DNA of 64,000 nt from an uncultured Treponema sp. Its GTDB lineage: Bacteria > Spirochaetota > Spirochaetia > Treponematales > Treponemataceae. Below, piece after piece: positions 1 to 37,510 of this stretch. The translations under genes and the position numbers were made by a program. The notes under the pieces are model-generated. The model saw only the letters and a program-made list of their open reading frames with translations. It was not told the DNA's origin and searched no databases. Positions within the stretch are counted from its first letter, which is position 1. The number at the start of each line of letters is the position of its first letter. The stretch is taken from the NCBI GenBank assembly GCA_947165895.1, contig CAMVCB010000002.1, forward strand, positions 186,001 through 250,000, read 5' to 3'.

Positions 1-1
1 T

Positions 2-631
2 CGGGGGCGTTGCGGGGGGGAGAGAAGATAGCCTAAAATCTGCTGCCGCAGATTTCTTAACGGCTTTCGATTCATCAAGAAGCAGCCCAGCTGCTTCACT
101 CACCCCGCTAGAAGGGGTAGCGAGCAACGAAGTGTGAGCGAGGGGAAGGCTTTCCCCTTTTTTGTTTTCGTCATCTACCGTCTGAATGTTAATTGCATCT
201 TCACCAAAGATTTTATGAACTGCGCCGATAAATGTTTCCATGCGTTTAGTATTCTGTCCGTGGTAAGAATCCCAGGAAAGTCCGATTTTTCCGTCGTAGC
301 CGGCGTCGTAAAGAGTCTGAAGCTTTTGAAAAAGGTCGTTTTCATCCTTCCACCAGTCTCCGTTAGTCATAATCTGGTCGAACATAAAGTCACTTTCGAT
401 GGCAGCGCGGGTAATTTCGCACAAAAAATCCATATACAAAAACGGCTCTCCGCCGCTGAAGCCGATTTTTTCTATAGAAGTGCCCTTGCAGGAAAGCAGC
501 AGTTTTTTTGCTGCGTCGATTGAAATGCGTTTAGGCTCGCGGTTTACAAAACAGTGCTCGCAGTGCAGGTTGCAGGCGGTCGTGCAGGAAAAAATTATTT
601 CGGTTGGTGTAAATGGGCTTCCTTTCTTCAT
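2..631 (-). CDS. Radical SAM protein, N-terminal part (runs off left edge)
   Basis: Read on the minus strand from ATG at 631, the frame stays open to the window edge (210 codons). The N-terminus carries CNLHCEHC (residues about 20-27), the CxxxCxxC signature that binds the 4Fe-4S cluster in radical SAM enzymes, followed by FSGGEP, the usual SAM-contact GGE motif. From about residue 160 onward the translation becomes unlike an enzyme (rich in L, S, A and P: SLPLAHTSLLATPSSG and on). The DNA there (about 20-150) resembles the palindromic intergenic islands seen elsewhere in this window, so the gene may be interrupted by a repeat. A TAAAAT box lies six bases before the ATG and no ribosome site is visible. 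Substrate cannot be told. Confidence 0.75.
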   Translation of the reverse strand, partial: MKKGSPFTPTEIIFSCTTACNLHCEHCFVNREPKRISIDAAKKLLLSCKGTSIEKIGFSGGEPFLYMDFLCEITRAAIESDFMFDQIMTNGDWWKDENDLFQKLQTLYDAGYDGKIGLSWDSYHGQNTKRMETFIGAVHKIFGEDAINIQTVDDENKKGESLPLAHTSLLATPSSGVSEAAGLLLDESKAVKKSAAADFRLSSLPPATPP

Positions 632-659
632 AAGGATATTTTAATAAGTGTGAAAAAAA

Positions 660-765
660 ATAGCCACAGATTGACGCAGATAAACACAGATATAACTTTA
701 TATTTGAGAAGTCAATATTGCAAATAACTTATCTGTGTGAATCTGTGTCCCATCTGTGGCTTATT
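660..765. repeat. CACAGAT-type inverted repeat
   Basis: The stretch begins with agccacagattgacgcagat and ends with cccatctgtggctta, so its ends are inverted copies. The core words (acacagat, atctgtgt, catctgtggc) recur at 4862-4892 and 7741-7770. It is a dispersed non-coding repeat; no gene is supported here. Confidence 0.6.
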
Positions 766-780
766 AAAAACATCCTTTTG

Positions 781-805
781 ATTTTCGCCATCGCCGGGAC
801 CCGCA
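781..805. repeat. Half copy of GGGACCCGCA palindromic element
   Basis: The 24 bases at 782-805 match 45619-45642 with only two differences (core ttttcgcc, then gggacccgca). At 45.6 kb this sequence is the right arm of a long hairpin; here the left arm is missing, so this looks like a decayed or truncated copy just ahead of pgk. Confidence 0.55.
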
Positions 806-884
806 ATCTGCTATTCTTGCAGGGTAGAAATTCTATTACAAACACATTATTATATTTTCGTAAATCATTATTAGGAGATTCGCA

Positions 885-2153
885 ATGATTAAAACAGTAA
901 AAGATGTTGATCTTAAAGGCAAACGCATTATCATGCGCGTTGATTTTAACGTACCAATGAAGGACGGAGTTGTACAGGATGATACTCGTATCATGGCTGC
1001 ACTTCCTACTATTAAATACATTCTCGAGCAGAACCCACGTTCTCTCGTTCTTATGAGCCACCTTGGAGACCCTAAAAAGGACGTAAAAAAGGCTCAGGAA
1101 AAAGCTGAAAAGGCTGGTAAAACCTGGACAGAAGCTGATGCAGAAAAATTCATCAACGGAAAGAACCGCATGAAGCCGGTTGTAGAATATTTTGCAAAGA
1201 AACTCGGAAAGCCAGTTACCTTCCTTCCAGATGCACTCGGACAGAAGGCTGCTATCGATGCTCTTCCAGAAGGAGCTGTTGCAATGCTCGAGAACGTTCG
1301 CTTCCACAAGGAAGAGACTTCTAAAGATCCTGCAGAGCGCGATGTAATGGCAAAAGAACTTGCTACATACGGAGACATCTTCGTAAACGATGCATTCGGA
1401 ACTGCTCACCGCGATCAGGCTTCTACAGCTTCTATCGCAAAATTCATGCCAGTAGAAAGCGTTGGCGGCTTCCTTATGGAAAAAGAAGTTAAATACATTC
1501 AGCCAATGGTAACAAACCCGGAAAAACCAATGACTGCTATTATCGGTGGCGCAAAGGTTTCTTCAAAAATCGCTGTTCTCGAAAGCCTTATGAAGAACGC
1601 TTCTACACTCATCATTGGTGGTGGTATGGCTTATACATTCCTCAAGGCACAGGGCCACTCAATCGGTAAGTCACTTGTAGAAGATGACTTCCTTGATACA
1701 GCAAAGGATCTTCTTGCAAAGGCAGAAAAGGCTGGAGTTAAGATTCTTCTTCCAGTTGACCATGTTGGTGGTGCAGAATTTGCTGATAAGGATCCAGTTG
1801 CTGTTGATGCAGTTGATCTTCCAGATAACCTTATGGGTATGGATGTTGGTCCTAAGACTGTTGAACTTTACAAGAATGCTATTCTTGCTTCTAAGTCTAT
1901 CGTATGGAACGGACCAGTTGGAGTATTCGAGTTCGAAAACTTTGCAAAGGGAACTGAAGCTGTAGCCCGCCTGGTTGCAGAAGCAACTTCTAAGGGTGCT
2001 ATGACTGTAGTTGGTGGTGGTGACTCTGTTGCCGCTGTAAACAAGTTCAACCTTGCAGACAAGATGAGCCACGTTTCTACTGGTGGTGGTGCTTCCCTCG
2101 AATTCCTCGAAGGAAAAACTCTCCCAGGTATCGCTATCTTGGCAACAAAATAA
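885..2153 (+). CDS. pgk: Phosphoglycerate kinase
   Basis: Glycolytic enzyme that transfers the acyl phosphate of 1,3-bisphosphoglycerate to ADP, giving 3-phosphoglycerate and ATP in the cytosol. The 422-residue product has the family features in order: RVDFNVP near residue 20, SHLGDP near 60 (the usual SHLGRP substrate motif), ENVRFHKEE near 135, NDAFGTAHR near 170, a lysine-bearing GGAKVSSKI near 218, and the C-terminal nucleotide loop GGGDSVAAV near 375. Length is normal for bacterial PGK. The start is supported by TAGGAG about eight bases before ATG. It is transcribed alone: a strong terminator follows, and no other glycolytic gene is adjacent. Confidence 0.98.
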
Positions 2154-2189
2154 GGCTAAAAATCTTAATACCTTAATATAACATATTAC

Positions 2190-2228
2190 ATGCCGCTCCT
2201 GCTGCGCGCCGGGGCGGCATTTTTTTTA
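2190..2228 (+). terminator. Rho-independent terminator of pgk
   Basis: atgccgctcc pairs with ggggcggcat across an 11-base loop (one G-U pair) and is followed by a run of T. It sits 37 bases after the pgk stop. Confidence 0.85.
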
Positions 2229-2247
2229 ACTTTTTCCCATCTTTTTT

Positions 2248-2290
2248 CAAAAACATTGCCGGAATTCGCAATTTAAGTCCATTTTAACTA
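2248..2290 (+). promoter_or_regulatory. Leader motif shared by two Rpn genes
   Basis: caaaaacattgccggaattc at 2248 is nearly identical to the sequence at 6149-6171 on the minus strand. It stands at a similar distance ahead of both complete Rpn genes and nowhere else seen in the window. It may be a promoter or operator, or a conserved boundary of a mobile unit. Confidence 0.5.
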
Positions 2291-2323
2291 TAGAGAAATG
2301 CAAAATTTCATCTGGAGGAAAAT

Positions 2324-3142
2324 ATGCAGAAAACAGTTTTCGACAACATTAATCCGGCCGTGCTTGAACGTGTAAAAAGTTTACGTCTAATAGATGATGA
2401 ACTTATGACAGTGGTATTCAACGGTGATGTAAGTGCGACAGAATTTCTAATCAGGATTCTATTAAATCGTAATGATCTGATAGTTAAAAAATCAATGACG
2501 CAGGTGCAGAAACAGAATCTTTTTGGACGCTCAGTGAAACTTGATGTAGTTGCTGAAGATATCTTTAAAAATGAATATAACATCGAAATTCAGCAGACAA
2601 AGAAAGGAGCTGGTGCCCGCAGAGTGCGCTATCATCAGGCAATGCTGGACTGTCATAGTCTGCAAAAGGGAACAAAATTTGAGGATTTACCGAATTTATA
2701 TATTATTTTCATTCTTGAACACGATTTCTATGGAAAAGGTGAGCCAATATACATTGTAAATAAAACTCTGAATATAAAAGATGAAGACGGCACTAATTTG
2801 CCATTTAATGATGGCTGTAATATAATGTACATCAACGGTGATTACAGAGGCGACGATTCTTTGGGAAAACTTATGCATGATTTTTCAACACCAAACGCCG
2901 ATGAAATGTATTATGATGAACTTGCGAAAAAAGTTCGCTTTCACAAGCAGGATGAAAAGGGGGTTCAAATGGCGAGTCAAATTGTAGAAGAATATGGAGA
3001 TGAGCGTGCTGCCGATGCAAAAGAGGAAAAATCTATCGAAGATGCCCTTGTTCTCATAAAAGATTTTTCTGTATCCCCTGAACTTGCTGCTGAAAAGATG
3101 AGGGCTCCATTAGATAAAGTTCTTGAGGCAATGCAATCATAA
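2324..3142 (+). CDS. Rpn family PD-(D/E)XK nuclease / transposase-like protein
   Basis: A 272-residue member of the PD-(D/E)XK family (PDDEXK_2, 'Rpn recombination-promoting nuclease'). The active-site pattern is visible: KLDVVAED supplies the aspartate near residue 72, and YNIEIQQ the glutamate plus trailing Q near 87. Then comes the family pattern of a YHQAMLD helix and a strand ending YIIFI. The C-terminus ends in a short helical tail (ELAAEKMRAPLDKVLEAMQS), a variable module reused at the end of the Rpn gene at 5254. The start has GGAGG seven bases upstream. Known relatives cleave DNA and promote recombination without encoding a normal transposase. The gene lies alone between pgk and a porin and shares a leader motif with the second Rpn gene. 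Confidence 0.85.
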   Translation: MQKTVFDNINPAVLERVKSLRLIDDELMTVVFNGDVSATEFLIRILLNRNDLIVKKSMTQVQKQNLFGRSVKLDVVAEDIFKNEYNIEIQQTKKGAGARRVRYHQAMLDCHSLQKGTKFEDLPNLYIIFILEHDFYGKGEPIYIVNKTLNIKDEDGTNLPFNDGCNIMYINGDYRGDDSLGKLMHDFSTPNADEMYYDELAKKVRFHKQDEKGVQMASQIVEEYGDERAADAKEEKSIEDALVLIKDFSVSPELAAEKMRAPLDKVLEAMQS

Positions 3143-3453
3143 TTTAGTCATTAAAAATATCTTTTGGAAGCTCTTCCCACCTAACTAACGTTCATTTGCT
3201 TAAAAATAAGGTAAAATCTTATCAATTTCATAGCCTTTTCAGGGCTTCGGACTGCAGGTGTACCGCAGGGAATACGGCTAAACCTAATCGAAAAATCAGT
3301 GAAATATTATCTATTGGCAACCGATTGCAGAGTAAATTGCAATCGGTTGCTTTAAGATATAACAAAACTTTAGCGTTTAACCTGTCATAAACCATATTAA
3401 ACCAAAAAGTTACTGTTTTTTTATAAGAATAAGTAATTTTTTAATTTTTTTTC
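3143..3453. other. Non-coding gap with a hairpin
   Basis: No credible gene is seen. The only clear structure is a perfect 13-bp inverted repeat (gcaaccgattgca at 3317-3329 with its complement at 3338-3350), followed by a short T-run. It could terminate the Rpn transcript. The short open frame across 3196-3390 has neither ribosome site nor recognisable sequence. Confidence 0.5.
3317..3353 (+). terminator. Probable terminator hairpin after Rpn gene
   Basis: Perfect 13-bp stem with an 8-base loop, but only three T residues follow. It is far (about 175 bases) from the preceding stop, so the role is tentative. Confidence 0.45.
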
Positions 3454-3482
3454 TTGACTTGCCATTTTGGGTGTGCTAAGAT
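3454..3482 (+). promoter_or_regulatory. Sigma-70 type promoter of porin 1
   Basis: TTGACT and TAAGAT are separated by exactly 17 bases, about 75 bases before the porin ATG. This is one of the best promoter matches in the window, as expected for an abundant outer-membrane protein. Confidence 0.75.
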
Positions 3483-3542
3483 TTTTATATAAAAAGGTAT
3501 CAAATAAAAAAGTCGTTGACTCTTTTGAGGCCTAAAAAAAAA

Positions 3543-3598
3543 GGAGGATTTTTTCAAATGAAAAAAATCGTTGGAATTATTGCAGCTGCTGCATTGGC
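3543..3598 (+). repeat. Left copy of 56-bp inverted repeat (porin start region)
   Basis: Ribosome site, spacer, start codon and first 13 codons of porin 1 are base-for-base identical to the minus strand of 9030-9085. The identity covers 15 bases of non-coding leader as well as the signal-peptide codons, so it exceeds protein-level constraint. Confidence 0.9.
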
Positions 3599-4733
3599 TG
3601 CATCTGCTTTCGCTGAAGTAAGCGTTGGTTCTTGGAATAGACAGGACTATGTACCATTGGCATACAATGGAACCGACTTGGTTCATGGTGGAATGGTAAA
3701 CTGGGATATGTGGCGTGGTGCTAACCCAGGTGTAAATCAGGGACGTATTGGTATTGGATTTAACGCTAATGCTGATGATGTTGCAGGTTTATCTGCAGAT
3801 TTACATGGAAATAATGGTCAATTTGAACTTGGTGATAACGCATACATTTGGGTTAAGCCATTTAATTTCATGAAAATTTCTATGGGTAAAATCGAAAACA
3901 ACTGGAAGAGAGGAAATCTTTGCTATGGTTTCTTTGATCACACAATCCGTATCGGTGGTGGACGCATTGGTGAAGATTTAACTTTCCAGAAAAAAGATGC
4001 AAACTTCTCAGTTCTTCTTACTCCAGTTGAAGGACTTGAAATTGACTACTCTGTTTCAACAACTTCTGGTGGAACATATTTCTATAATTCAGTATGGAAT
4101 CAGGCTCGTTTTGGTGTTGCTTATGCAATTGATGGTGTTGGTACAATCAAAGCTCAGATTCGTGGTAAAGACAATGCTACAAACAAAGATGGTGACAAAG
4201 TTGCTTGGGGTGTTGCAAACGTTGCATTTGATTTGACTTCTGTAGAGAATTTATTCTTGACTGTTGGTGCATATGCTCCAACAACCTTTGCAGCTCTTGG
4301 AAGTGACAATAAACAGGACGGTGATTCAACTGTAAAAGTTGCTCTTGGTGTAAACTATAAACTTGATGCTTTGACTCTCCATGCATTTGCAGATACTCGT
4401 CTTTTGGTTGCAGATGTTGAATCTGCAAATCCACTTAAAGATGCTAACAAATTTGGATTTGCATTTGGTGCTGGTGTAGATTTCGCTATTACAGATGCTT
4501 ATACATTGATTGCTGATGTTCGCTATAACGATGCTTGGTATAACACAGTTGGAAATGACAAAAAAGCAAAAGACTGTCTTGCATTCTATGCTGGTATTGC
4601 ACACCAGATTTCCAATGCAACACTTGACATCGGTTTTGAAGGATCTACAAATTCTGTAGGATGCTATGTTGATCCATCAAAAGCAGATGCATTCACATTT
4701 GCTATCCCTCTTCAGGTTACAGTTGGATTCTAA
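3558..4733 (+). CDS. Outer-membrane porin-like beta-barrel protein (porin 1)
   Basis: A 391-residue secreted protein. The start at 3558 is chosen over an upstream in-frame codon because AAGGAGG lies just before it and the product then begins with a clean signal peptide (MKKIVGIIAAAALAASAFA, cleavage before EVSVGSW). The mature part is strand-rich with alternating aromatic and polar residues, repeated VGAY/FGAGVDF-type hairpins, and a final strand ending LQVTVGF with a terminal aromatic residue, the usual outer-membrane insertion signal. This fits short treponemal porins; substrate is unknown. It is a paralogue of the protein at 7901-9070 with the same signal peptide, related C-terminal strands (LTLHA and FGAGVDFA versus LTLHA and VGAGVDYA) and the same 3' flank. 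It is transcribed alone from a strong promoter and ends in a terminator. Confidence 0.8.
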   Translation: MKKIVGIIAAAALAASAFAEVSVGSWNRQDYVPLAYNGTDLVHGGMVNWDMWRGANPGVNQGRIGIGFNANADDVAGLSADLHGNNGQFELGDNAYIWVKPFNFMKISMGKIENNWKRGNLCYGFFDHTIRIGGGRIGEDLTFQKKDANFSVLLTPVEGLEIDYSVSTTSGGTYFYNSVWNQARFGVAYAIDGVGTIKAQIRGKDNATNKDGDKVAWGVANVAFDLTSVENLFLTVGAYAPTTFAALGSDNKQDGDSTVKVALGVNYKLDALTLHAFADTRLLVADVESANPLKDANKFGFAFGAGVDFAITDAYTLIADVRYNDAWYNTVGNDKKAKDCLAFYAGIAHQISNATLDIGFEGSTNSVGCYVDPSKADAFTFAIPLQVTVGF

Positions 4734-4744
4734 TTCCACCTTCT

Positions 4745-4890
4745 GGACTTAGAAACCTAGCTTAAAAAGCAAAAAGCGGTTGCCTTTTGGTAATCGCTTT
4801 TTTTTTATATCAACATAATAAATAATCCAAATAACTTAAAGCTTTCCCTTACAGCTCGCCATCCGTGTAAATCTGTGTTCCATCTGTGGC
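4745..4890. repeat. Left arm of 146-bp inverted repeat
   Basis: From ggacttagaaacctagctt to ccatctgtggc, this flank is about 90 % identical (by eye) to the complement of 7741-7888. It contains the porin terminator and, at its outer end, the CACAGAT repeat. The two arms enclose the Rpn island. Confidence 0.85.
4771..4806 (+). terminator. Terminator of porin 1
   Basis: aaaaagcggttgcc pairs with ggtaatcgcttttt around a tttt loop, with the T-run continuing. The same hairpin is found inverted after porin 2. Confidence 0.9.
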
Positions 4891-4909
4891 TAAAATCTTA
4901 TCTCTTCCA

Positions 4910-5218
4910 CTACACTACCGGCATAGGAGTTTTTACAATTTCTTTTATCTTCTCAACAGGCATATTTAATGACTTTGCAATAATTTCCAGCGAAACTCCA
5001 TTTTCATATAAACTGCGGGCAGCTTCAACAGCCTTTTGCTCTGCACCAGCTTCTTTGCCGCTTTCAAAATCATATGCTCTCTGTCTTTCCCATTCCATAT
5101 ACTGCCTCTTCCATTGCGTATTATGCTTTGCGTCTTCTGCCAGCCGGGCAACTTTCTTTGAAAAATCATCACCTGCTTTTTGTCCGGCAACCAGCTTTAC
5201 AAAATAAAAGAAATGACG
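4910..5218 (-). pseudogene. C-terminal remnant of an Rpn gene with a different tail
   Basis: The minus-strand frame is open from a TAA at 5219-5221 to the stop at 4910. Its first part (KLVAGQKAGDDFSKK onward, through WERQRAYDF) is a near-exact copy of the internal part of the neighbouring Rpn protein: 5049-5199 matches 5417-5567. The remainder differs (SLYENGVSLEIIAKSLNMP). The nuclease half is absent and there is no ribosome site, so this is a partial tandem duplication or a stored tail cassette. A perfect inverted repeat (aaatgac/gtcattt) marks 5211-5228 at its broken end. Confidence 0.8.
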
Positions 5219-5253
5219 TTAGTCATTTCCAATCCGTGTGGCAACTTTTAATT

Positions 5254-6114
5254 TTACTTTTCCAGTGCTTCCAGCACCAGTTCCAATGGCGCATTCATAT
5301 CTTTAGCAGCAATATCTGGCGATGCATTATATTTTTTTACCAGCATTACGGCATCTTCAACAGCTTTCTGCTCAGCACCAAGAGAAATTCCAGCTTCCTT
5401 GCCAATTTCTATACCTGCTTCCTTGCCGCTTTCGAAATCATATGCTCTCTGTCTTTCCCATTCCATATACTGCCTCTTCCATTGCGTGTTATGCTTTGCA
5501 TCCTCTGCCAGCCGGGCAACCTTCTTGGAAAAATCATCACCAGCTTTTTGTCCGGCAACCAGCTTTAAAAACTCTTTCTGTTTTTCATTCAGTATTTTAT
5601 CATAGTTATCCGCAATGTAAAAGATTTTATAAGCCCGGTCGTTAAGACACAGAGAATTATCTTCCAGGCAGATATTTTCAAAATGATAGCATGGCAGCCC
5701 TTTTTCAAAAATGTCGGGAATACAGATAAAGATTACGTATGAGTTTTTCAGTTCCTTATAGGTCTGCCCGGATTTTAAACAATCCACATCAATCGTTCCC
5801 TGATAGTAACGGGCGCGCTCAGGTAATTCCTTTGTATCCGTCGCTTGAAGTTCAATATTATAGGCATTGCTTTCGTTCTTAGCATAAATGTCCAGCCGGA
5901 TTCCCTTGCTGCCGAAATCTGTTTCAATTACTTCTTCCCCGCGCATTTCGATGCGGTCTATTTCTATTTCCAGAAGAAGTTCCAGCAGCTCCTTGCAGAC
6001 GTCAGGATTATGCCTCATTACCTTGTAAAAGATAAAATTGTTTGCAATTGTAGCCCTTTCCCATTTTTCTTCCGGTGTGAGCAGCCGCTCATCAATTATT
6101 CGTTTATCAGTCAT
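5254..6114 (-). CDS. Rpn family PD-(D/E)XK nuclease / transposase-like protein
   Basis: A 286-residue relative of the protein at 2324-3142 but of a different subgroup. The nuclease core shows RLDIYAKNE (aspartate near residue 75) and AYNIELQAT (glutamate near 86), then RARYYQGTID and a strand YVIFIC. The C-terminal third is charged and helical, with a short repeat (GKEAGIEIGKEAGISLGAEQ). It ends in the same type of tail as the first Rpn protein (ASPDIAAKDMNAPLELVLEALEK). ATG at 6114 has GGAGG seven bases upstream, and the leader motif at 6149-6171 is shared with the first Rpn gene. Relatives are believed to nick or cut DNA and raise recombination frequency; a mobile-element role is inferred. 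Confidence 0.85.
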   Translation of the reverse strand: MTDKRIIDERLLTPEEKWERATIANNFIFYKVMRHNPDVCKELLELLLEIEIDRIEMRGEEVIETDFGSKGIRLDIYAKNESNAYNIELQATDTKELPERARYYQGTIDVDCLKSGQTYKELKNSYVIFICIPDIFEKGLPCYHFENICLEDNSLCLNDRAYKIFYIADNYDKILNEKQKEFLKLVAGQKAGDDFSKKVARLAEDAKHNTQWKRQYMEWERQRAYDFESGKEAGIEIGKEAGISLGAEQKAVEDAVMLVKKYNASPDIAAKDMNAPLELVLEALEK

Positions 6115-6148
6115 TCAAAATCCTCCATACCTTAATATGGATTTTTTT

Positions 6149-6171
6149 TGCAAATTCCGGCAATGTTTTGA
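6149..6171 (-). promoter_or_regulatory. Rpn leader motif, second copy
   Basis: Minus-strand sequence caaaacattgccggaattt matches 2248-2270 and stands about 35 bases ahead of the start codon of the 5254-6114 gene. Confidence 0.5.
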
Positions 6172-6245
6172 GAAATTTTTGTAATTTTTTTTGAAAATAA
6201 CTTCAAAAAAAATATGCAAGATTAGTAAAACTTTTACCAAACAAA

Positions 6246-6275
6246 AAAGCACCTGACAGATACGGCAGGTGCTTT
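6246..6275 (-). terminator. Terminator of the 6300-7049 gene
   Basis: On the minus strand gcacctg pairs with caggtgc around a 10-base loop and is followed by TTTTTTGTTT. It lies about 25 bases after the stop codon. Confidence 0.8.
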
Positions 6276-6299
6276 CTTGCAGGTTATATTTTGTCCCTT

Positions 6300-7049
6300 T
6301 TATTCTTCGTAAACGTCTTTTTCAGGGCCATTATACTCTTCTTTTTCCTGGATGATTTTGTTCTGGAAACCCGAAATTTTTTCTTCGTATTCAGCCTGGA
6401 GGGTATTAAGCTGATCCTGATTTAATTTTGCAGCAAAATCTTTTGCCTGAGCACGTGTAAAATACATTGTTACAGTAGGAAAATCTTTCACTGTATATTT
6501 TGGCTGGTTTGGAGCTTCATCTTTTGCTCCCTGAACTGAAATTACAAAATATGGAGATTTCTTTTCAAAACGATATCCTGTTTTAAAGGTTGTATTTGCT
6601 TCGTGATTCATCATAAGCTTTACAGTTCCAAATTCTGCAAAACATTTGCCTTTTCCGTACATTTTTGTTGTCTTGTTATTGTTGCGGATAAGTCTTTTGT
6701 TTGCAAAATCATCAAGATATAAATCAACAGCTTTGATTATTATCTCTCTGTCTGCTTCTGAAAAGGAAAACTTAAAAAACATTGTTTCAAAATATGTCGA
6801 AACTCCGGCTCTTTTGGCAACAGGATCATAAATCATTGTTGACGGACGCTGTTTCTGCTGCTGAAATACATTGTTTGTCTGAAGTTCAACATCGTCGTAT
6901 TCTACATATTTCTGTTTTCCAACAAAAAGCTCTTTCCAGAAGCTGACACTTTCGCCATTTGCATCATATTTTGTTTTTGCAGTAATTCCGGCTGCAAGCA
7001 CAGTGATAAGGATAGCTGTAAAAGCGGTAATTTTTACGTTTTTTTTCAT
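6300..7049 (-). CDS. Secreted protein of unknown function
   Basis: A 249-residue product not recognised. It starts with a basic stretch and a hydrophobic segment (MKKNVKITAFTAILITVLAAGITA) that reads as a signal peptide or single anchor. The rest is hydrophilic and probably periplasmic, with two strand-rich halves (TVKLMMNHE, PYFVISVQG, TVTMYFTRA) and an acidic helical C-terminus (EYEEKISGFQNKIIQEKEEYNG). No lipobox or enzyme motif is visible. It sits between Rpn genes inside the inverted-repeat-bounded island and has its own terminator. A stretch of A/T-rich bases precedes the start (GGAGAT six bases upstream serves as ribosome site). Confidence 0.6.
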   Translation of the reverse strand: MKKNVKITAFTAILITVLAAGITAKTKYDANGESVSFWKELFVGKQKYVEYDDVELQTNNVFQQQKQRPSTMIYDPVAKRAGVSTYFETMFFKFSFSEADREIIIKAVDLYLDDFANKRLIRNNNKTTKMYGKGKCFAEFGTVKLMMNHEANTTFKTGYRFEKKSPYFVISVQGAKDEAPNQPKYTVKDFPTVTMYFTRAQAKDFAAKLNQDQLNTLQAEYEEKISGFQNKIIQEKEEYNGPEKDVYEE

Positions 7050-7172
7050 TTTTAAATCTCCATGATTAACAATTTTAAAGAAGAAGGCTTTCTTACTTAT
7101 ATAAAATAAAACTGTTTATTTATGTTTTCGTTACAAATTAATTTTATCAAAAAAAAAGGATAAATACCACCT

Positions 7173-7685
7173 GTGATTACGGGTAAAAAGTCAATCCCTC
7201 AGAAGCAGGAACTGAAGCTTTCTGATGCCTTTTATGAAAAAGACGACAGTAAACTGGAGCTTGTGGTAAAAGTCAAAAACTGCTCGGACTATATGAATTT
7301 GCCGGTTTTCAATAATTGTGATATTCTTAGGGAGTACTGCAGGTTTATTGAAATAGTCGAACAAACCTACAGCAGGCATTTTCCAAAACGCTCGATAAGA
7401 CGGGCCATTGAAATCGCGAGAGACGAAGGCATTCTTTCTGAATATTTAGACCGGAAGTCGCGGGAGGTAATAAACATGTTATGTGCAAAGTATGATTATA
7501 AAATGGACATTGCAGTAAAACAGGAAGAAGCCCGTGCAGAAGGCATTGTAGAAGGTCAACAAAAGAAAGCTGTTGAAGATGCTGAAAGGGCTATAAAGCT
7601 TGGACTTACTGTTGAACAGGTTGCTGCTATTACATCTTTACCTGAAGATAAAATCCTTGAACTGAAAGAAATGATTGAAAATTAA
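7173..7685 (+). pseudogene. 5'-truncated Rpn-type gene (C-terminal half only)
   Basis: The 170-residue frame, opened by GTG at 7173, corresponds to the C-terminal half of Rpn/PDDEXK proteins: LKLSDAFYEKDD, then CDILREYCRFIEIVEQ, the family helix AIEIARDEGILSEYLDRKSREVI, and a tail GIVEGQQKKAVEDAERAIKLGLTVEQVAAITSLPEDKI. The nuclease core that normally comes first is missing and there is an in-frame stop just upstream, so this is most likely a remnant. The tail resembles an HTH-like LTVEQVAAITSLP unit comparable with the alternate tail in the 4910-5218 fragment (GVSLEIIAKSLNMP). A small translated protein cannot be excluded. Confidence 0.7.
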
Positions 7686-7740
7686 TAGTCTCAAATGGCT
7701 TAACGCTGCTTGCCGACTTAACGAAGGAAATATTGTTTTA

Positions 7741-7888
7741 ACCACAGATGGAACACAGATTTACACGGATGGTGGATTGTAAGGGAAAGATTTTAGTTAT
7801 TTGGATTATTTATTTTAATATGTTGATATAAAAAAAGCGGTTACCAAAAGGCAACCGCTTTTGCTTTTTAAGCTAGGTTTCTAAGTCC
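7741..7888. repeat. Right arm of 146-bp inverted repeat
   Basis: Inverted copy of 4745-4890, including the CACAGAT word (accacagatggaacacagat) and the porin terminator hairpin. Confidence 0.85.
7830..7862 (-). terminator. Terminator of porin 2
   Basis: On the minus strand aaaagcggttgcc pairs with ggtaaccgctttt around tttt, followed by T residues; the inverted counterpart of the hairpin at 4771-4806. Confidence 0.9.
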
Positions 7889-7900
7889 AATGGGTTGGAA

Positions 7901-9070
7901 TTAGAAGCTTACAGTCATTGTCAAAGGTACTGCAAATGTGAAGTCATCAGCTTCGTGTTTAGCATGCATAGCGCGTTTTCCGAACTGAGCACCAAATGCG
8001 AATGTTGCATTTGTAAGCTGCTGCTGGAGACCAAGGTAAGCACCGAATGCTGGATCTTCCCATTTAACATCTTTTCCTTCTTCTTTTGGCTTGTCTGAGT
8101 ATGTGCTGAAGCGAACGTCTGTTACAAGTTTCCAAGCATCAGAGAATGCATAGTCTACACCTGCACCAACATAAGCTGTGAATGCACCAAGTTCATAGTC
8201 TCCGTCATCATTTTTTGATTTTGCACGGATTCCGAGGTCTGTCTGTGCATGGAGTGTAAGAGCGTCGAGATTGTAGTCAACACCAGCACCAATTCTGATA
8301 GCTGAATCTTTCTTTGTAAGAACTGTAGGAATAGAAGCACCTACTTTCAAAGTAAGGTTTTCGATAGCTGTGATATCAGCAGCAAGACCGATTACAGCAG
8401 CTGGTTTTGTGTCTGTATCTTTTGCTTTGTATGTTGTAGCCTGCTGACCATTGATGATTGCACGGATGAATCCGAAATCAGCCTGGTAACCAATCATTGT
8501 AGAAGAAGATTCCCAGAGTACATCATAAGCATGGTTATCTTTTCCTGCTGTTGCAGCATCATCATCAGTAGTTTTGAAGTTAGCTTCATAGTCAATTACA
8601 AGACCTTCAACTGGCTGCAATGTAACTTCTGCACCAAGACCCTTCTGGCGTTCTACACCAGCAAGACCTTCACCAACCTGGAGAACACCAGCGAAACGTG
8701 AGTAATCCCATGTTCCGAAGCAGTGATCAAGACGACCCCAGTTGTTATCCATTTTACCAAATTTAAGAGTAAGCATATCTACAGGTTTTACCCATGTGTA
8801 TGCGTTATCACCCATACCAATAGAAGCACCAGGATTTCCATGGATATCGAATACTACACCGGCATTCTCTGAAGAAGCAGAGAATGAAAGTCCTGTACGA
8901 ACACCACCTTTGTCACCTACGTCCCAGCTTGGACCTTCGAAAGAACGAACTGTATCACCATCATAATAAACTGGTTCGAATATAGCTCTGTTCCATGTAC
9001 CTACATTTACTTCTGCGAAAGCAGTTGATGCCAATGCAGCAGCTGCAATAATTCCAACGATTTTTTTCAT
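7901..9070 (-). CDS. Outer-membrane porin-like beta-barrel protein (porin 2)
   Basis: A 389-residue paralogue of porin 1 on the opposite strand. The start at 9070 is preferred to an upstream in-frame codon: GGGAGG is upstream and the product begins MKKIVGIIAAAALASTAFA, cut before EVNVGTW. The mature part has an N-terminal barrel segment like porin 1 (GDNAYTWVKP versus GDNAYIWVKP; KFGKMDNNWGR versus SMGKIENNWKR) and the C-terminal strand LTMTVSF ending in phenylalanine. Central loops differ strongly (GVERQKGLGAEV; TTDDDAATAGKDNHAYD), so surface-exposed parts have diverged. Its leader contains a hairpin absent from porin 1, and an invertase gene lies directly upstream on the same strand. Confidence 0.8.
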   Translation of the reverse strand: MKKIVGIIAAAALASTAFAEVNVGTWNRAIFEPVYYDGDTVRSFEGPSWDVGDKGGVRTGLSFSASSENAGVVFDIHGNPGASIGMGDNAYTWVKPVDMLTLKFGKMDNNWGRLDHCFGTWDYSRFAGVLQVGEGLAGVERQKGLGAEVTLQPVEGLVIDYEANFKTTDDDAATAGKDNHAYDVLWESSSTMIGYQADFGFIRAIINGQQATTYKAKDTDTKPAAVIGLAADITAIENLTLKVGASIPTVLTKKDSAIRIGAGVDYNLDALTLHAQTDLGIRAKSKNDDGDYELGAFTAYVGAGVDYAFSDAWKLVTDVRFSTYSDKPKEEGKDVKWEDPAFGAYLGLQQQLTNATFAFGAQFGKRAMHAKHEADDFTFAVPLTMTVSF

Positions 9071-9085
9071 TTGAAAAAATCCTCC
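9030..9085 (-). repeat. Right copy of 56-bp inverted repeat
   Basis: Minus-strand sequence from the ribosome site into codon 14 of porin 2, identical to 3543-3598 on the plus strand. Confidence 0.9.
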
Positions 9086-9102
9086 CTTTAAATTGGAGGT
9101 CA

Positions 9103-9128
9103 CTGTTTCACGGAAATGCGTGAAACAG
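9103..9128 (-). promoter_or_regulatory. Hairpin in porin 2 leader
   Basis: ctgtttcacg and cgtgaaacag form a perfect 10-bp stem with a 6-base loop, 33 bases before the porin 2 start. There is no T-run, so it is more likely an mRNA-stability or regulator-binding element than a terminator. Porin 1 has no such hairpin. Confidence 0.6.
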
Positions 9129-9216
9129 CAAAATCTTGCGATTTGTATCAAAATATTGTTGTTGGATTTTGAGAAAATTAAGGTATTATCTTGAGTTTTT
9201 TGTGGTTATTATGCAG

Positions 9217-9831
9217 CTATAATCTGTTTCTAAAGACAATTCCGCGGCGTTTTAGAAAGTTTGTCAGTGTCTGTGTGTTTACGTTGAAGGTTTCGCTGAT
9301 GTATTTTTTTGAATATCCACATAAAAGCATATTGATTATTTCATTTTCGTAGGGGGATAGTTTGTATCTTGTGTTCAGTTTACCGCGGGGGCGGCCAAGT
9401 ACAACTCCTTCGGATTTTTTACGGCGCAAAGCTTCTTTAGTGCGGTCGGAAATCAGTGTGCGTTCAATTTCTGCGGAAATGCTGAAGGCAAAAGCCAGCA
9501 CTTTACTTGTAAGGTCGCTTCCGAGTTTGTATCCTTCTTTGACTGTGTAGACAAGTACGCCGTCTTCCATCAGTCGGTTGAGAATTGACATAATCATAAA
9601 CATGTTTCTTCCCAGGCGTGATATTTCTGAACAGATTATGATGTCACCTTTTTTTACTTTGCCTAATAATTTTCCAAGATTGCGCTTTGACGGTGCAACC
9701 GTGCCGCTTATAGTTTCTGCAATCCACTTATCAATTTTGATTTTATGACGTTTTGCATAGCAAGTAATTTCGTACTTCTGATTTAATACAGTCTGCTTGT
9801 CTGTACTTACCCGTATATAGCCGAAAATCAT
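9217..9831 (-). CDS. Serine site-specific recombinase, Mpi-like DNA invertase
   Basis: A 204-residue serine recombinase of the resolvase/invertase family. The catalytic serine is S9 in YIRVSTDKQ, and the helper arginines are in SRLGRNMF. The long E helix spans KVLAFAFSISAEIERTLISDRTKEAL, followed by GRPRGK and a C-terminal helix-turn-helix (SKKYISETFNVNTQTLTNFLKR). Length and wording (VLAFAFSISAEIER, the GRP linker) are those of the Bacteroides Mpi group, which flips promoter or gene cassettes between inverted repeats, rather than of large integrases. AAGGAGG six bases before ATG supports the start. It lies just outside the 3543-9085 inverted-repeat-bounded segment, the typical position of an invertase relative to its cassette. 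Confidence 0.92.
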   Translation of the reverse strand: MIFGYIRVSTDKQTVLNQKYEITCYAKRHKIKIDKWIAETISGTVAPSKRNLGKLLGKVKKGDIIICSEISRLGRNMFMIMSILNRLMEDGVLVYTVKEGYKLGSDLTSKVLAFAFSISAEIERTLISDRTKEALRRKKSEGVVLGRPRGKLNTRYKLSPYENEIINMLLCGYSKKYISETFNVNTQTLTNFLKRRGIVFRNRL

Positions 9832-9894
9832 ATAATCCTCCTTAGGAAATCTTCGGCATATACACTAGCTAAGTATTATCAGCTGGTAGAGGGC

Positions 9895-12066
9895 TTACAT
9901 ATTAGAAAAGAAGTTTTTTACTTCATCAATAAAGCCGGCAGTGTATTTTTTCAATGCTTTTAAGAAGGAGTTATTAGCAAGCTGTCCAAGAACGGCTTCC
10001 ATTTCATCCTTGCTGCGGTAAACCATTGTGCGATAGTAATCAGTGTAATCTTTTTCGCGGGATTTTACTGATGAATCGTAAATCTGCTGGGCACATTTTG
10101 AAACGTCATTGATGATATCTTCAAAGGTCTCTGAGTTAAAATCTTCAAATTCTCTTGAGTAAAGGTATTCAAGCAGGTAGATGGCATAGCGGACTTTATA
10201 CTGGCCGTAAGAGCACTCGCAGAGATTATAAAACTGATGGACAGATTCCCAGTTGTTGATTGAACCGTCCTTTATGCTGGCAAAAAGTTCTTCAACTTTT
10301 GCATGAGGCATAATCTGGCCGCCAACGTTTTCCCATTCAGTAAATAAAGGAATTTTTTTGATGCGTTCCATAATCTCGTTTGTAAGAACGGTGGAATTCA
10401 AAGTTTTCGTGTATTCCATCAGGGTTCGGACTGCAAAGTATTTTACAATCTGGCGGTAAGTTTTATAGGCCCGGACAGGCTTGCAGATTGTAGCGCCGTA
10501 TTTTTTCTGACACTGTGAATCTGAAAGTGTAAAAACTGCATCCGGATTTTTGTGAAGAAAATCTTTTGCATACTGGTAGCGCTTGCTTTCTTTTGTGATT
10601 TCCGTAATTTTTTTATCGCCGGATTCCGCAAGATAATCGGCTGTAAGAGAAATCAGTCTTTCCAGTGCGTGGGCAATTTCTTCCATTGTATCAGGGGCAA
10701 GCGGGTCAAATTCAATGTTCTGAATCTTTGTGATTCGCTTGTCGCGGACAGCAAATTTATCTTTATTGCGCATAACGGCGAACATGTCGTACATGAAAAG
10801 CCAGGCAGGAACAATGTGTACGCTAGGATCACCGTTTTGTCCCGGTGCAACAAGGGAGAAAGGATATTGAATATCCAGCTCGTGCTGGTAGCTTCCCTTT
10901 GAAACCAGAACAAAGCTTGCAAAGCGGGAGTTGTGTTTAAAATCGCTGCAAAGTCCCGGCCAGAAGCCGCGTTTTGCAAAAATTTCGCCGTCCGGACTTC
11001 GGGAGTTGTGGTTACTTCCGATTGTTGCGCCTGAGGCAATATTGCTCTGTCCCATAACGGTGGTGGCAATCAGGAAGGAAGAGTTATGATGCTGTTCGTG
11101 GAAAGGATAAATCAGATTGTTCAAAACTTCACAGCAGGAAATTGTTGAATTGTCACCGAGAACTGAGTTCAAAAGTCTTGCGCCGTACTTTACGTTACAG
11201 TTTCTGCCTATAACAAAGCGGACTGCCATTGCACTGTAGAAGACGTGGGTACCGTAGCCCATAATTCCGTTTACCAGAATTACACCCTCTCCAATCTGAC
11301 TTGGTTCTTCCTCTGTTGAAAGAATGGTAATGTTTTTGAGCTTGAGGGCGCCTTTAATATAAACGCTTTTTCCAATCTTTGCGTCTTTTATGATGTTTGT
11401 CTGTTTGATAACAGTATCATCATCAATAAATCCTATGGTGTCCAGTTCGCCGGTATTGCCGTTTTCTGTGAGTTCAACGAAACGCTGCAAAAGCTCGCTG
11501 TCGTCACGGTAATGCGACCAGAGGTAGGCGTCCCCCGCAATCATAGATTCAAAAGGCAGAATACGGCGGCCGTCGTTTTCATTTGCAACGCCAATCCACA
11601 TTCGTTTGTCTTCTGTTTCGCCCTTTTTGAGGATTCCGTTTCCAAATTTTGAGTGATTTGTACAGCAGATTTCGCTGATGTTAAAGAGAATTACACGGTT
11701 GCCAAGACGGTAGTTTTCAAAATAATTAACATTATAAATTACGCAGTCATCACCGATTATAATATCCTTGAGCTTGGAATTTCTGATTCCGGCTCCCAGA
11801 CGAAGGTCGTTCCAGTGTAAAAAGACAAGACGGAGCTTCCCGATAACAATGTAGCCCGAAAAAAAACAGTTGGCAATTAAGGTCGGATCAAAATTTCCTT
11901 CGCCTTCTTCAACAAGGATATTCTGCCAGCTTTCATCAAGATTGTGGTTTCTGTTTTCCTTTAATATTTTGATTTCATCTTTTGTAAGGTGACGTTTTCC
12001 CGTCTTATATTCTGACGGAACTTTATATGTAAAATCATTTTTTGATGCTAATTCAATTTCAACCAT
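9895..12066 (-). CDS. DUF4954 family protein (left-handed beta-helix, acyl/nucleotidyl-transferase-like)
   Basis: A 723-residue cytosolic protein. The middle (about residues 80-390) is built of hexapeptide-like turns such as IIGDDCVIYNV, GNRVILFNIS, IGKSVYIKGALKLKN, IGRNCNVKYGARLLNSVLGDNSTI and SGATIGSNHNS, which fold as a left-handed beta-helix in sugar acyltransferases and nucleotidyltransferases. The C-terminal 300 residues are helical. The order and length match DUF4954 (known from treponemes and Bacteroidetes), whose role is not established; a link to sugar-nucleotide or envelope metabolism is inference. No N-terminal nucleotidyltransferase motif is visible. ATG at 12066 has no ribosome site but TATAAT seven bases upstream, suggesting a leaderless mRNA. 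Confidence 0.75.
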   Translation of the reverse strand: MVEIELASKNDFTYKVPSEYKTGKRHLTKDEIKILKENRNHNLDESWQNILVEEGEGNFDPTLIANCFFSGYIVIGKLRLVFLHWNDLRLGAGIRNSKLKDIIIGDDCVIYNVNYFENYRLGNRVILFNISEICCTNHSKFGNGILKKGETEDKRMWIGVANENDGRRILPFESMIAGDAYLWSHYRDDSELLQRFVELTENGNTGELDTIGFIDDDTVIKQTNIIKDAKIGKSVYIKGALKLKNITILSTEEEPSQIGEGVILVNGIMGYGTHVFYSAMAVRFVIGRNCNVKYGARLLNSVLGDNSTISCCEVLNNLIYPFHEQHHNSSFLIATTVMGQSNIASGATIGSNHNSRSPDGEIFAKRGFWPGLCSDFKHNSRFASFVLVSKGSYQHELDIQYPFSLVAPGQNGDPSVHIVPAWLFMYDMFAVMRNKDKFAVRDKRITKIQNIEFDPLAPDTMEEIAHALERLISLTADYLAESGDKKITEITKESKRYQYAKDFLHKNPDAVFTLSDSQCQKKYGATICKPVRAYKTYRQIVKYFAVRTLMEYTKTLNSTVLTNEIMERIKKIPLFTEWENVGGQIMPHAKVEELFASIKDGSINNWESVHQFYNLCECSYGQYKVRYAIYLLEYLYSREFEDFNSETFEDIINDVSKCAQQIYDSSVKSREKDYTDYYRTMVYRSKDEMEAVLGQLANNSFLKALKKYTAGFIDEVKNFFSNM

Positions 12067-34702: not shown

Positions 34703-35671
34703 ATGAAAAAAGCATTAACCTTTATACTTATATATATTGTCATTCTTTTTACGGGAACCCTGCTTTCTACAATACTGTATTCTCTCTATCTGAATGTAAC
34801 AGGCTTTACAGCCGGCAAAGCGATTAAGCTTTTTAATACCCCTGATATCCTCAAATCTTTTTTTTATGTTTCTGCATGTTTTTGTTTTTTAATTTGTCCC
34901 CTGCTTTCATATTATAGAATCCGTCACAGCTATGGAGTTTTACAGACCTTCGCCTATGTTCTGATTTTTCTTCTGACCTGGGCTGTAATTTTTCCCGCTA
35001 ATGCAAAGCTCAAGAATTTTGTGAATAGAAATTTTTCCTATGACCAGCAGAGGGAAGCTTTGACCGGCGGCTATTTCAGAAAGGTCGGCGATAAAGTTTA
35101 TTATCTTGTGGAAGATTATAATTTTGATAAGGCCACAAGACTGATTGAAATTGATACAGATGAAGACCTGCCTGTAAAATACGGGCTTGTTTTTTCTGAA
35201 GATGATTTTGAACTTTTGACAGCAGGAAAAAATTACCGGGACGTAATAATCAAGAGTACTTTTGTTGATTCAACTCTTCCTCATATTATTAATTTCCGTT
35301 CTCTTGTTGACTACGGGGAAAGGGCACTGGAAGGAGGGCTTTTATCTTATCTTTGTTTTTTGGCCCTGGCTCTGGCTCTTTCTTCTGTTTACGGAATTAC
35401 AGCATTTTTTGAATGGCACCTTTTGAGTGTTTGTGCGGTTGCTCTTTTTTCAGCCGGAATTCTTTCAATAAATACACTTTATTTTTCACCAGCTTTTACC
35501 TCGATAAAAAATCATATTTATGACATCAGTCTTTTTAATTTTTTGAACGGATTTATTGATAACTCCTTCCTGCTTGTTGCCAATTGCGCAATTTCCCTGT
35601 TTTTTATTGCTTTTGGCATTGTTGTATTTATACTTCATAAAAGTTCGGTAAAAAAGGAGGAGGAAATTTAA
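34703..35671 (+). CDS. Membrane protein of unknown function (possible LptF/G-like half)
   Basis: A 322-residue protein with about six membrane helices: three near the N-terminus (residues 5-105), a polar domain of about 95 residues (FVNRNFSYDQQREALTGGYFRKVGDKVYYLVEDYNF) that would be outside the cytosol, and three more at the end. Helices flanking an extracytoplasmic domain is the arrangement of LptF/LptG permease subunits, but sequence motifs are too weak to assign. Stop and next start touch (TAAATG), with AGGAGG in front of the second gene, so the two products probably form a pair. Confidence 0.5.
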   Translation: MKKALTFILIYIVILFTGTLLSTILYSLYLNVTGFTAGKAIKLFNTPDILKSFFYVSACFCFLICPLLSYYRIRHSYGVLQTFAYVLIFLLTWAVIFPANAKLKNFVNRNFSYDQQREALTGGYFRKVGDKVYYLVEDYNFDKATRLIEIDTDEDLPVKYGLVFSEDDFELLTAGKNYRDVIIKSTFVDSTLPHIINFRSLVDYGERALEGGLLSYLCFLALALALSSVYGITAFFEWHLLSVCAVALFSAGILSINTLYFSPAFTSIKNHIYDISLFNFLNGFIDNSFLLVANCAISLFFIAFGIVVFILHKSSVKKEEEI

Positions 35672-37510
35672 ATGAAAAAGATTATTGGAATTCTGTCTTT
35701 TTTCCTTGTTGCCGGATTGATTTTAAGTCTTGTTTTTGGTTTTATAGGAACAATTCCGGATTCTGTTCCTGAGGCTGCAAGAGGAAAATATAAATTTCTT
35801 GTAGGACTTGGATATTTTCTTCGCTATATTCCCAGCGTAATTACATCCGGTTTTATAGTAAGTTTTTGTGTATATTTTGGAAATAACTGCGAAGGAAGCA
35901 TGTCACGTTTTTCATCTGCAATGCTGACACGCTTTAAGCTGATGATTATTTTCGCGGTTTCCTGCTCATTTATTTTGACCCTAAGTTCAGAGGTTTTTTA
36001 TCCTCTTACCAGCCGTGTAAAAAAATCAATAATCAACCGGCCAAAACTGATTAATCAGTACCTTAAAGCCGGTGAACAGTTTTTTGCTGACGGTCATTAT
36101 GACAGAAGTTATGTATATGCTGATGCTGTTCTTGCTCTTGATCCTAATTCCCGCCAGGCTGCTGATTTGAAAGACCGTTCCGATGTTGAAATCAACCGGG
36201 AAAATACCTCTAATATCCGTTTTGAAATTTACCGTTCGTCCAAGGAAAATCATGATGATACTGCAAAGATTCATATTGATGAGCAGAAAATTTCTGATGC
36301 CTACAGATGTTATCTGAAGGCTAAAGAGTGTTTTGCAAAAGGCGAGTGGATTAATGCACATTATTATGCTCTGGAAGGCCGTAAACTTTCAACTCCAAAG
36401 GATCCTAATGTAGAAGAGCTTAGAAACATAGCAACAGAGGCATGGAACAAAATCACAAGCGAGCATGATCTTTCAAAAAATGATGATCAGAAGTTTTTTG
36501 ACGCCAAGTTCCGCGGTTATCTTGCCCTCGTTCAGAATGATGATTTAACTGCCTATTATATATTCCGTGATTTGTATCTTTCTTCCCGAGAATATTCTAC
36601 AGACCCTGATGTTCTTTTCTATCTTGATGTTGCCGCAAAAAGAATTGATGAGCGCTGTTTTTTTGACGACGAAGTTTTCCAGCTTAAGAGCTTTGAAAAT
36701 GTAAATGACATCTGTTTTTCCTATACATACAATGATGGGTCAAAGGATATTATCTATTTCCGCGGTATGACTTCCGTAAAGGAAACCGGGCGGACTGTTC
36801 AGTATCTTAGAGATTTAACAATTCAGACCTTGAGTAATACAGGAAGCCTTTACAGAACTATGACAGTTCCTTACGCAAAGGTTCTGCCTGTTTCGATAAA
36901 GTCAATCAATGAAAAAACAAAGGAGCTTTTAGGAATCGGAAAGGACGTTACAATCATTCCTTATATCATGCTGAACTCTGTGGGACGAAACAGCCCGGAC
37001 ATCAGAATTGAACCTCTTTATGTTTATGAATCCGGGGAAATTGCCCATGTTCCTGAATACATCCTGCTCCCAATGAATTATTCTGATTTTACCATGCTTG
37101 AAACTCAGACTAACGAGCCGGAACGTATTCCTTTTGGCAATCTTTTCAAGCTGATTAAAAAGGCAAGTGACTTTGGATATTCTTCGGAAGTTTATTGCGA
37201 GGCACTATTAAATAGAATATTTTATCCTTTCTGGATTGTAATTCTGCTTATCGGTTATGCTTCTGTGGCCTGGAACTACAGAATTGGCTTTAATAAATAC
37301 TTTAAGATGACCTGGGTTTTCAGTTTCCCTTTTATCATCTTTTTGACCCACATTATGAACAAATGGCTTTTGTACATTTTTAAACTCTTTAATTATGTAA
37401 TTGTAGGCCTTGTTCCGTCGGCCCTTGCGGTTATTGCGGGATTTATTTTATACAGCCTTATTCTGCTGTCTATGTCGATTTATTTTCTTGCAAGACATAC
37501 TTCAGTGTAG
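35672..37510 (+). CDS. Membrane protein with TPR-like extracytoplasmic domain, LptF/G-like layout
   Basis: A 612-residue protein. Three N-terminal helices (about 5-115), then a large extracytoplasmic domain (about 130-515), and three C-terminal helices. The first half of the domain contains TPR-like helices (KAGEQFFADGHYDRSYVYADAVLALDPNSRQAADL). The second half ends with PFGNLFKLIKKASDFGYSSEVYCEALLNRIFYPFWIVILLI, reminiscent of the LptF/G segment just ahead of the last helices. Together with the preceding gene it looks like a two-permease lipid-transport-like pair, yet no LptB or LptC gene is near. The assignment is inference; a treponeme-specific envelope protein is the cautious reading. Confidence 0.5.
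   Translation: MKKIIGILSFFLVAGLILSLVFGFIGTIPDSVPEAARGKYKFLVGLGYFLRYIPSVITSGFIVSFCVYFGNNCEGSMSRFSSAMLTRFKLMIIFAVSCSFILTLSSEVFYPLTSRVKKSIINRPKLINQYLKAGEQFFADGHYDRSYVYADAVLALDPNSRQAADLKDRSDVEINRENTSNIRFEIYRSSKENHDDTAKIHIDEQKISDAYRCYLKAKECFAKGEWINAHYYALEGRKLSTPKDPNVEELRNIATEAWNKITSEHDLSKNDDQKFFDAKFRGYLALVQNDDLTAYYIFRDLYLSSREYSTDPDVLFYLDVAAKRIDERCFFDDEVFQLKSFENVNDICFSYTYNDGSKDIIYFRGMTSVKETGRTVQYLRDLTIQTLSNTGSLYRTMTVPYAKVLPVSIKSINEKTKELLGIGKDVTIIPYIMLNSVGRNSPDIRIEPLYVYESGEIAHVPEYILLPMNYSDFTMLETQTNEPERIPFGNLFKLIKKASDFGYSSEVYCEALLNRIFYPFWIVILLIGYASVAWNYRIGFNKYFKMTWVFSFPFIIFLTHIMNKWLLYIFKLFNYVIVGLVPSALAVIAGFILYSLILLSMSIYFLARHTSV

Follow-up and report, generated by a model that had tools for sequence, protein, structure and literature searches.

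Very probable surface-coat switching by DNA inversion in an uncultured Treponema

The vsa recombinase of Mycoplasma pulmonis is a tyrosine recombinase, whereas inversion in Moraxella bovis depends on Piv, a recombinase of another family, and Mpi of Bacteroides fragilis flips promoters at many loci. Several outer-membrane protein genes (omp1) of Dichelobacter nodosus are reportedly served by one promoter, with crossover in a common 5' region. At vsa, inversion joins a promoter and an N-terminal coding region to a formerly silent gene (PMC4534519). A multiple inversion model for omp1 goes back to Moses 1995, in the form in which PMC5903667 cites it. Pilin inversion is known from Moraxella bovis (Marrs 1988; PMC9585708), Mpi has been described as a global DNA invertase that controls surface variation (PMC4747536), and tprK of the pathogen Treponema pallidum varies by gene conversion (PMC4534519). 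Here we analysed a stretch of 64,000 nucleotides (the window) from an uncultured Treponema sp. (GenBank assembly GCA_947165895.1, contig CAMVCB010000002.1, positions 186,001 to 250,000), in which two convergent genes for porin-like barrels, p1 and p2, bear an inverted repeat at their 5' ends and lie beside a gene for an Mpi-family serine recombinase. Judged from its sequence and from comparison with about 200 relatives, the locus is highly likely to be a multi-cassette expression-site switch for outer-membrane barrels that operates by site-specific inversion.

Like vsa, the proposed switch has one expression site and promoterless silent genes, but its products are beta-barrels rather than surface proteins of a wall-less bacterium, its recombinase is a serine recombinase, and its site overlaps both the start codon and the ribosome site. 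It resembles omp1 in having several outer-membrane protein genes, one promoter and a 5' crossover, and differs in that the Dichelobacter host is a gammaproteobacterium and the protein is unrelated; we know of no description of silent omp1 leaders with a folded Shine-Dalgarno sequence (SD). As in Moraxella bovis, variable gene bodies would be swapped beside a fixed expressed 5' part, although the gene there encodes pilin and has two alleles. The recombinase belongs to the same family as Mpi (NCBIfam model), but where Mpi flips promoters, the Treponema locus would exchange gene bodies at a coding-start site. With tprK it shares outer-membrane protein variation in Treponema and silent donors, whereas tprK has neither an invertase nor a common 28-bp site. 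We found no report of an invertase-linked Treponema porin system in the literature searched. What is new is the lineage, the proposed enzyme-site pair and the position of the site on the translation start; the switching logic is known.

The locus and the proposed inversion

The original prediction had described convergent porins with an identical 56-bp inverted repeat that includes 15 non-coding bases, a promoter upstream of p1, and an Mpi-type serine invertase about 130 bp outside the repeat. All of these hold at their coordinates (Table 1), the non-coding bases being the first 15 of the repeat, the distance being 131 bp and the recombinase passing its family cut-off. The repeat is exact over 56 bp, but the functional unit is smaller, with a cross-species core of about 28 bp. 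Both of the predicted repeat-bearing porins are there, but a third repeat copy with 1 mismatch (G000:C2:182848-182903, minus strand), 3.1 kb beyond the left edge of the window, precedes another porin gene, p0 (G000:C2:181749-182888, minus strand). Unlinked copies of the 56 bp lacking an invertase are absent: the whole 2.99-Mb genome holds three copies, spanning 12.3 kb. The leaders of p0 and p2 are alike over ~100-150 bp including a hairpin, whereas the p1 leader differs and has a strong promoter. Among named relatives, those nearest to it are rumen Treponema, namely isolate JC4 (NZ_AJGU01) and the metagenome-assembled genomes (MAGs) RUG517 and RUI115.

In the proposed mechanism, the leader at 3454-3543, with its promoter and structured 5' untranslated region (5'UTR), would be the single expression site, while p2 and p0 would stand behind silent leaders that have no promoter and keep the ribosome site folded away. 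The joint common to p0, p1 and p2 would be the ~28-bp site G-AGGATTTTTTCAAATGAAAAAAATC-GT, which lies over the SD, the start codon and codons 2-4. The recombinase would cut at this site and recombine two inverted copies, and the DNA between them would flip, joining another barrel body to the promoter and silencing the previous one, at a frequency useful in cells. A flip of 3543-9085, as the original prediction had it, would connect p2 to the promoter and leave p1 with the silent leader; a flip with p0 would have the same outcome and would invert the gapA-pgk segment too. Alternatively, the switch might be ancestral but frozen in this strain, with the recombinase acting elsewhere or not at all. 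This is quite unlikely: flipping is not directly evident in this genome, as would suit a frozen switch, but the recombinase reading frame is intact and the two copies remain identical over 56 bp.

The shared site and its recombinase

The 25-mer AGGATTTTTTCAAATGAAAAAAATC, which runs from the SD through the start to codon 4, was found, for the most part as inverted pairs, in 55 of 196 genomes of the genus by a search that allowed at most one mismatch and hence under-samples more divergent sites; a reversed-pattern control gave 0. In an order-level sample of 294 genomes it was confined to this genus (1 of 83 genera), and none was found in viral contigs. Barrels close to the same recombinase in relatives also have inverted repeats beginning at GGAGG. 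With G154 set aside, mismatches among 114 tabulated copies from 50 genomes are confined to positions 11-13, the triplet immediately upstream of the start codon, which forms the centre of an imperfect dyad. This non-coding triplet (-3 to -1) differs from species to species, and yet 34 of the 36 multi-copy genomes hold a single centre type, compared with a mean of 10 and a maximum of 17 genomes under shuffling. Crossover sites of hix/gix-kind serine invertases are dyads of about 26 bp with a 2-bp core that matches between partners.

Signal peptides following the 25-mer differ even within one genome (G122, G013, G208, G212), while synonymous sites inside it are invariant, so the protein is not what holds this DNA constant. 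The same observation counts against the null explanation offered with the original prediction, duplicated paralogues with a conserved secretion leader. More generally, these might be ordinary porin paralogues whose start regions resemble each other through a common secretion leader and ribosome site, or through a small RNA that binds all of them there. The motif does span SD, start and signal peptide, and this is where small RNAs typically act on enteric porin mRNAs. This reading is nonetheless very improbable, since another MKKIIGIL start in the window (35656-35690) uses different codons and a different spacer, and since it predicts neither one promoter per genome, nor inverted pairing, nor a link to the recombinase.

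Exact identity between expressed and silent copies goes down to 28-30 bp in six genomes (G122, G152, G163, G208, G212 and G013), which bounds the site to about the 28 bp given above. Such runs are near or below the usual minima for homologous recombination. Cassette exchange at the 5' region might instead be real but RecA-driven, through general homologous recombination or gene conversion of the sort known from Campylobacter fetus sap and from tprK, and the recombinase would then be a bystander. In several genomes 50-119 bp are common to expressed and silent copies, as this would suggest, and the 3' flanks of p1 and p2 also hold inverted repeats, one exact (Table 1) and a further one at 4817-4904/7727-7814 (88%), which indicate that the locus has a past inverted duplication as well. 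We consider RecA-driven exchange unlikely, however, because the common run in the six genomes ends at the same bases, because variation is position-specific at the dyad centre, and because the motif is linked at genome level to one recombinase clade.

Against the NCBIfam model PRK13413.1 / NF009949 (Mpi-family invertase) the recombinase scores 280.6 bits, with a curated equivalog cut-off of 272, and its resolvase N-terminal domain scores 112 bits; it is the sole Mpi-family gene in the genome. We defined clade A as recombinases at least 64% identical to that of the window, present in 43 genomes. The motif occurs in 35 of these 43 genomes versus 21 of the 153 others (Fisher p 1e-16, a significance that is overstated because the Fisher tests take related genomes as independent). 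Likewise, 33 of 41 genomes with silent copies have a clade-A recombinase, versus 2 of 12 with a single expressed copy only (p 1e-4). By coordinates, recombinase and motif lie within 10 kb of each other in at least 21 of the 35 clade-A motif genomes. In G120 the recombinase is more divergent (49%) and stands between two inverted copies with a common new centre, CCT. Elsewhere, other recombinases of the family adjoin inverted repeats that encode an IVIGNPPY-like methyltransferase motif (L149, 470-501/3571-3602; L161, 436-476/6503-6543), which suggests phase-variable restriction-modification loci.

Another candidate site and other candidate signs of inversion were set aside. The 26-bp palindrome upstream of p2 was considered as a crossover site, but it is present only in this genome's two silent leaders; being absent from the p1 leader and from the relative G023, it cannot join expressed and silent copies. 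In about a dozen cases only 2-24 bp separate the motif from the end of its contig, and MAG contigs end 2-100 bp past the motif at L070, L197, L236, L238, L246, L254, L256, L260-L262, L264, L265 and L268. Such ends were not counted as a sign of mixed orientations, because short-read assemblers also break at repeats (k-mer limits). Two contigs of G099 with the same recombinase locus are collinear, with no inversion between them, and a search of the genome contigs for a second assembly of the same species gave relatives only.

One promoter per genome and the exchange of barrel bodies

An expression (E) leader was defined by the pattern TTGAC-N-16to18-TA...T, in which the -10 keeps a constant distance. 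Exactly one E leader is present in 33 of the 36 multi-copy genomes and two in none, the remaining 3 having no E leader among the recovered copies; under shuffling, 16 genomes had exactly one and 8 had more than one. All other motif copies have leaders without this promoter, mostly with a predicted sequestered SD (S leaders). Mean predicted SD accessibility is 0.62 for E versus 0.19 for S, and E exceeds S in 26 of 29 genomes. In the window, the SD of p2 is predicted to be closed by the CCTCC upstream (accessibility 0.008), whereas that of p1 is open (0.57). The promoter is followed by a 5'UTR hairpin with a GTT triloop, 4 of whose 5 pairs show compensatory changes among 22 E leaders. This hairpin lies just upstream of the A-rich SD region in E leaders of 45 genomes; an Rfam scan of window positions 1-12000 gave no match to it or to anything else. 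Paired CGTGAAACA motifs recur in the silent leaders of many species (9103-9128 in the window; L235, L240, L247, L248, L096, L099), as an inverted repeat in the window's own clade and as a direct repeat in G003, G208, G212 and G216.

Where an expressed copy shares its contig with a silent one (22 cases), an inverted silent copy is present in 20, and neighbouring copies are convergent in 22 cases versus divergent in 5. We also compared barrel bodies between species. Orthologous bodies stand behind an S leader in one species and an E leader in another, with identities of 61-81%, for example G122 S/G164 E (81%), G208 E/G212 S (74%), G059 S/G060 E (73%), G144 E/G104 S (70%) and the window's p2 (S)/G075 (E) (68%). 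Mapped on a tree of 93 bodies, the E/S label requires 33 changes, compared with 30.2 for within-genome shuffles, and thus has no phylogenetic signal. Among the four closest species, E leaders are 78-87% identical in DNA while the bodies are 36-66% identical in protein, the opposite of what stable paralogues would give. The RUG517 copy beside pgk has a p1-type leader and a p1-type downstream region, yet a p2-like body. These comparisons of assembled genomes show that, over evolution, barrel bodies swap between predicted expressed and silent positions. The original prediction had suggested a comparison of related genomes, and its model of flip-driven porin switching gains strong comparative support from core recurrence, the recombinase link, the one-promoter rule and body exchange.

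Several points weigh against a site-specific switch. Two genomes, G078 and G140, have two centre types each. The dyad, around AA at -1/+1 within the 28-bp core, is imperfect, matching at 9 of 12 positions. For up to 14 of the 35 clade-A motif genomes, a distance of 10 kb or less between recombinase and motif is not established, which could reflect either action in trans or the fragmentation of assemblies. A clade-A recombinase is absent from eight genomes that hold silent copies; four of these eight have 56-60% relatives. E and S were assigned by consensus promoter rather than from transcripts, and the data are assemblies, one genome per species, from which we infer inversion itself.

The barrels, further site types and biological meaning

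p1 and p2 are homologous (42%). The AlphaFold model of p2 (predicted local distance difference test, pLDDT, 73) is a barrel of ~16 strands whose best Foldseek matches are porins (Vibrio OmpT, Campylobacter MOMP, OmpF; E 5e-9, template-modelling (TM) score ~0.5), and a Pfam OMP_b-brl match falls below the cut-off. Among 11 homologues the N- and C-termini are conserved and inner segments vary, which fits the variable loops and similar ends anticipated from the sequence of the pair. The model and its matches support the designation of p1 and p2 as porin-like. Around the porins, Rpn/PDDEXK_2 nuclease-transposase genes and a fragment (2324-3142, 5254-6114, 7173-7685) lie between and beside them, with duplicated 164-bp segments. 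When this genome is compared with RUG517, the segment separating gapA from pgk is flipped with respect to the genes around it (G000:C2:184416-186643 versus L061 8757-10910).

Table 1. Coordinates of the switch locus in the window
Feature	Position	Strand	Basis
Sigma70-type promoter of the E leader, TTGACT-17-TAAGAT (TTGACT 3454-3459, TAAGAT 3477-3482)	3454-3482	+	Sequence; 45 genomes have this promoter type, each at a single copy
E-leader 5'UTR hairpin, AGTC-GTT-GACT	3511-3521	+	Covariation, 22 E leaders
Inverted-repeat arm 1, 56 bp	3543-3598	+	Sequence comparison
Proposed recombination site, copy 1	3544-3571	+	Exact copy; minimal expressed/silent identity 28 bp across genomes
p1, porin-like barrel, copy currently behind the promoter	3558-4733	+	42% to p2; same family as modelled barrel
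Exact inverted repeat 3' of p1, 3' flank/terminator region	4744-4774	+	Partner 7859-7889
Partner repeat arm 3' of p2	7859-7889	-	Pairs with 4744-4774
p2, porin-like barrel, silent copy	7901-9070	-	~16-strand barrel model; porin matches at low TM
Inverted-repeat arm 2, 56 bp	9030-9085	-	Sequence comparison
Proposed recombination site, copy 2	9057-9084	-	Same basis as copy 1
Anti-SD (CCTCC in mRNA sense) of the silent leader, pairing with SD at 9081-9085	9095-9099	-	Predicted SD accessibility
26-bp palindrome/hairpin of the silent leader	9103-9128	-	Sole other genome copy in p0 leader
Mpi-family serine recombinase, proposed invertase	9217-9831	-	Profile scores; 204 amino acids; 131 bp outside repeat

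There are further leader types. One, GGAGGCTAAGAG-ATGAAAAAGACTCTTATCGC, is common to barrel paralogues in G020, G031, G151, G153 and G222 (loci L062, L063, L064, L066, L101, L102, L108, L309 and L310), again with one promoter-bearing copy; the near-complete G222 has one E and three S copies, and no recombinase adjoins these loci. Another, GGAGGTTTTTTCATT-ATGAAAAAATTGATTGG, is found in G107, G128 and G084 (L104, L105, L110, L111, L308) with the one-promoter pattern, and these three genomes have a clade-A recombinase on other contigs. We regard it as reasonably likely that surface variation of this kind is genus-wide in commensal Treponema: an Mpi-family recombinase whose site lies within ribosome site, start codon and codon 4 would provide a universal joint for the swapping of divergent barrel families, with one expressed and 1-4 silent cassettes, the silent ones doubly locked by the lack of a promoter and a sequestered SD, with at least two further site types, those just described, under the same one-promoter rule.

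If the proposed switch is real, gut and rumen Treponema would have programmed, reversible surface variation in more than a quarter of the sampled species. The 28-bp start-codon site would be unusual in that a recombination joint also serves as the translation start, and the proposed enzyme and site can be tested in E. coli. In metagenomes, the expressed barrel would be predictable from the sequence behind the single promoter. Because porins serve as nutrient channels, as antigens and as receptors for phages, direct tests of niche switching, host immunity and phage resistance would become feasible in these poorly tractable bacteria.

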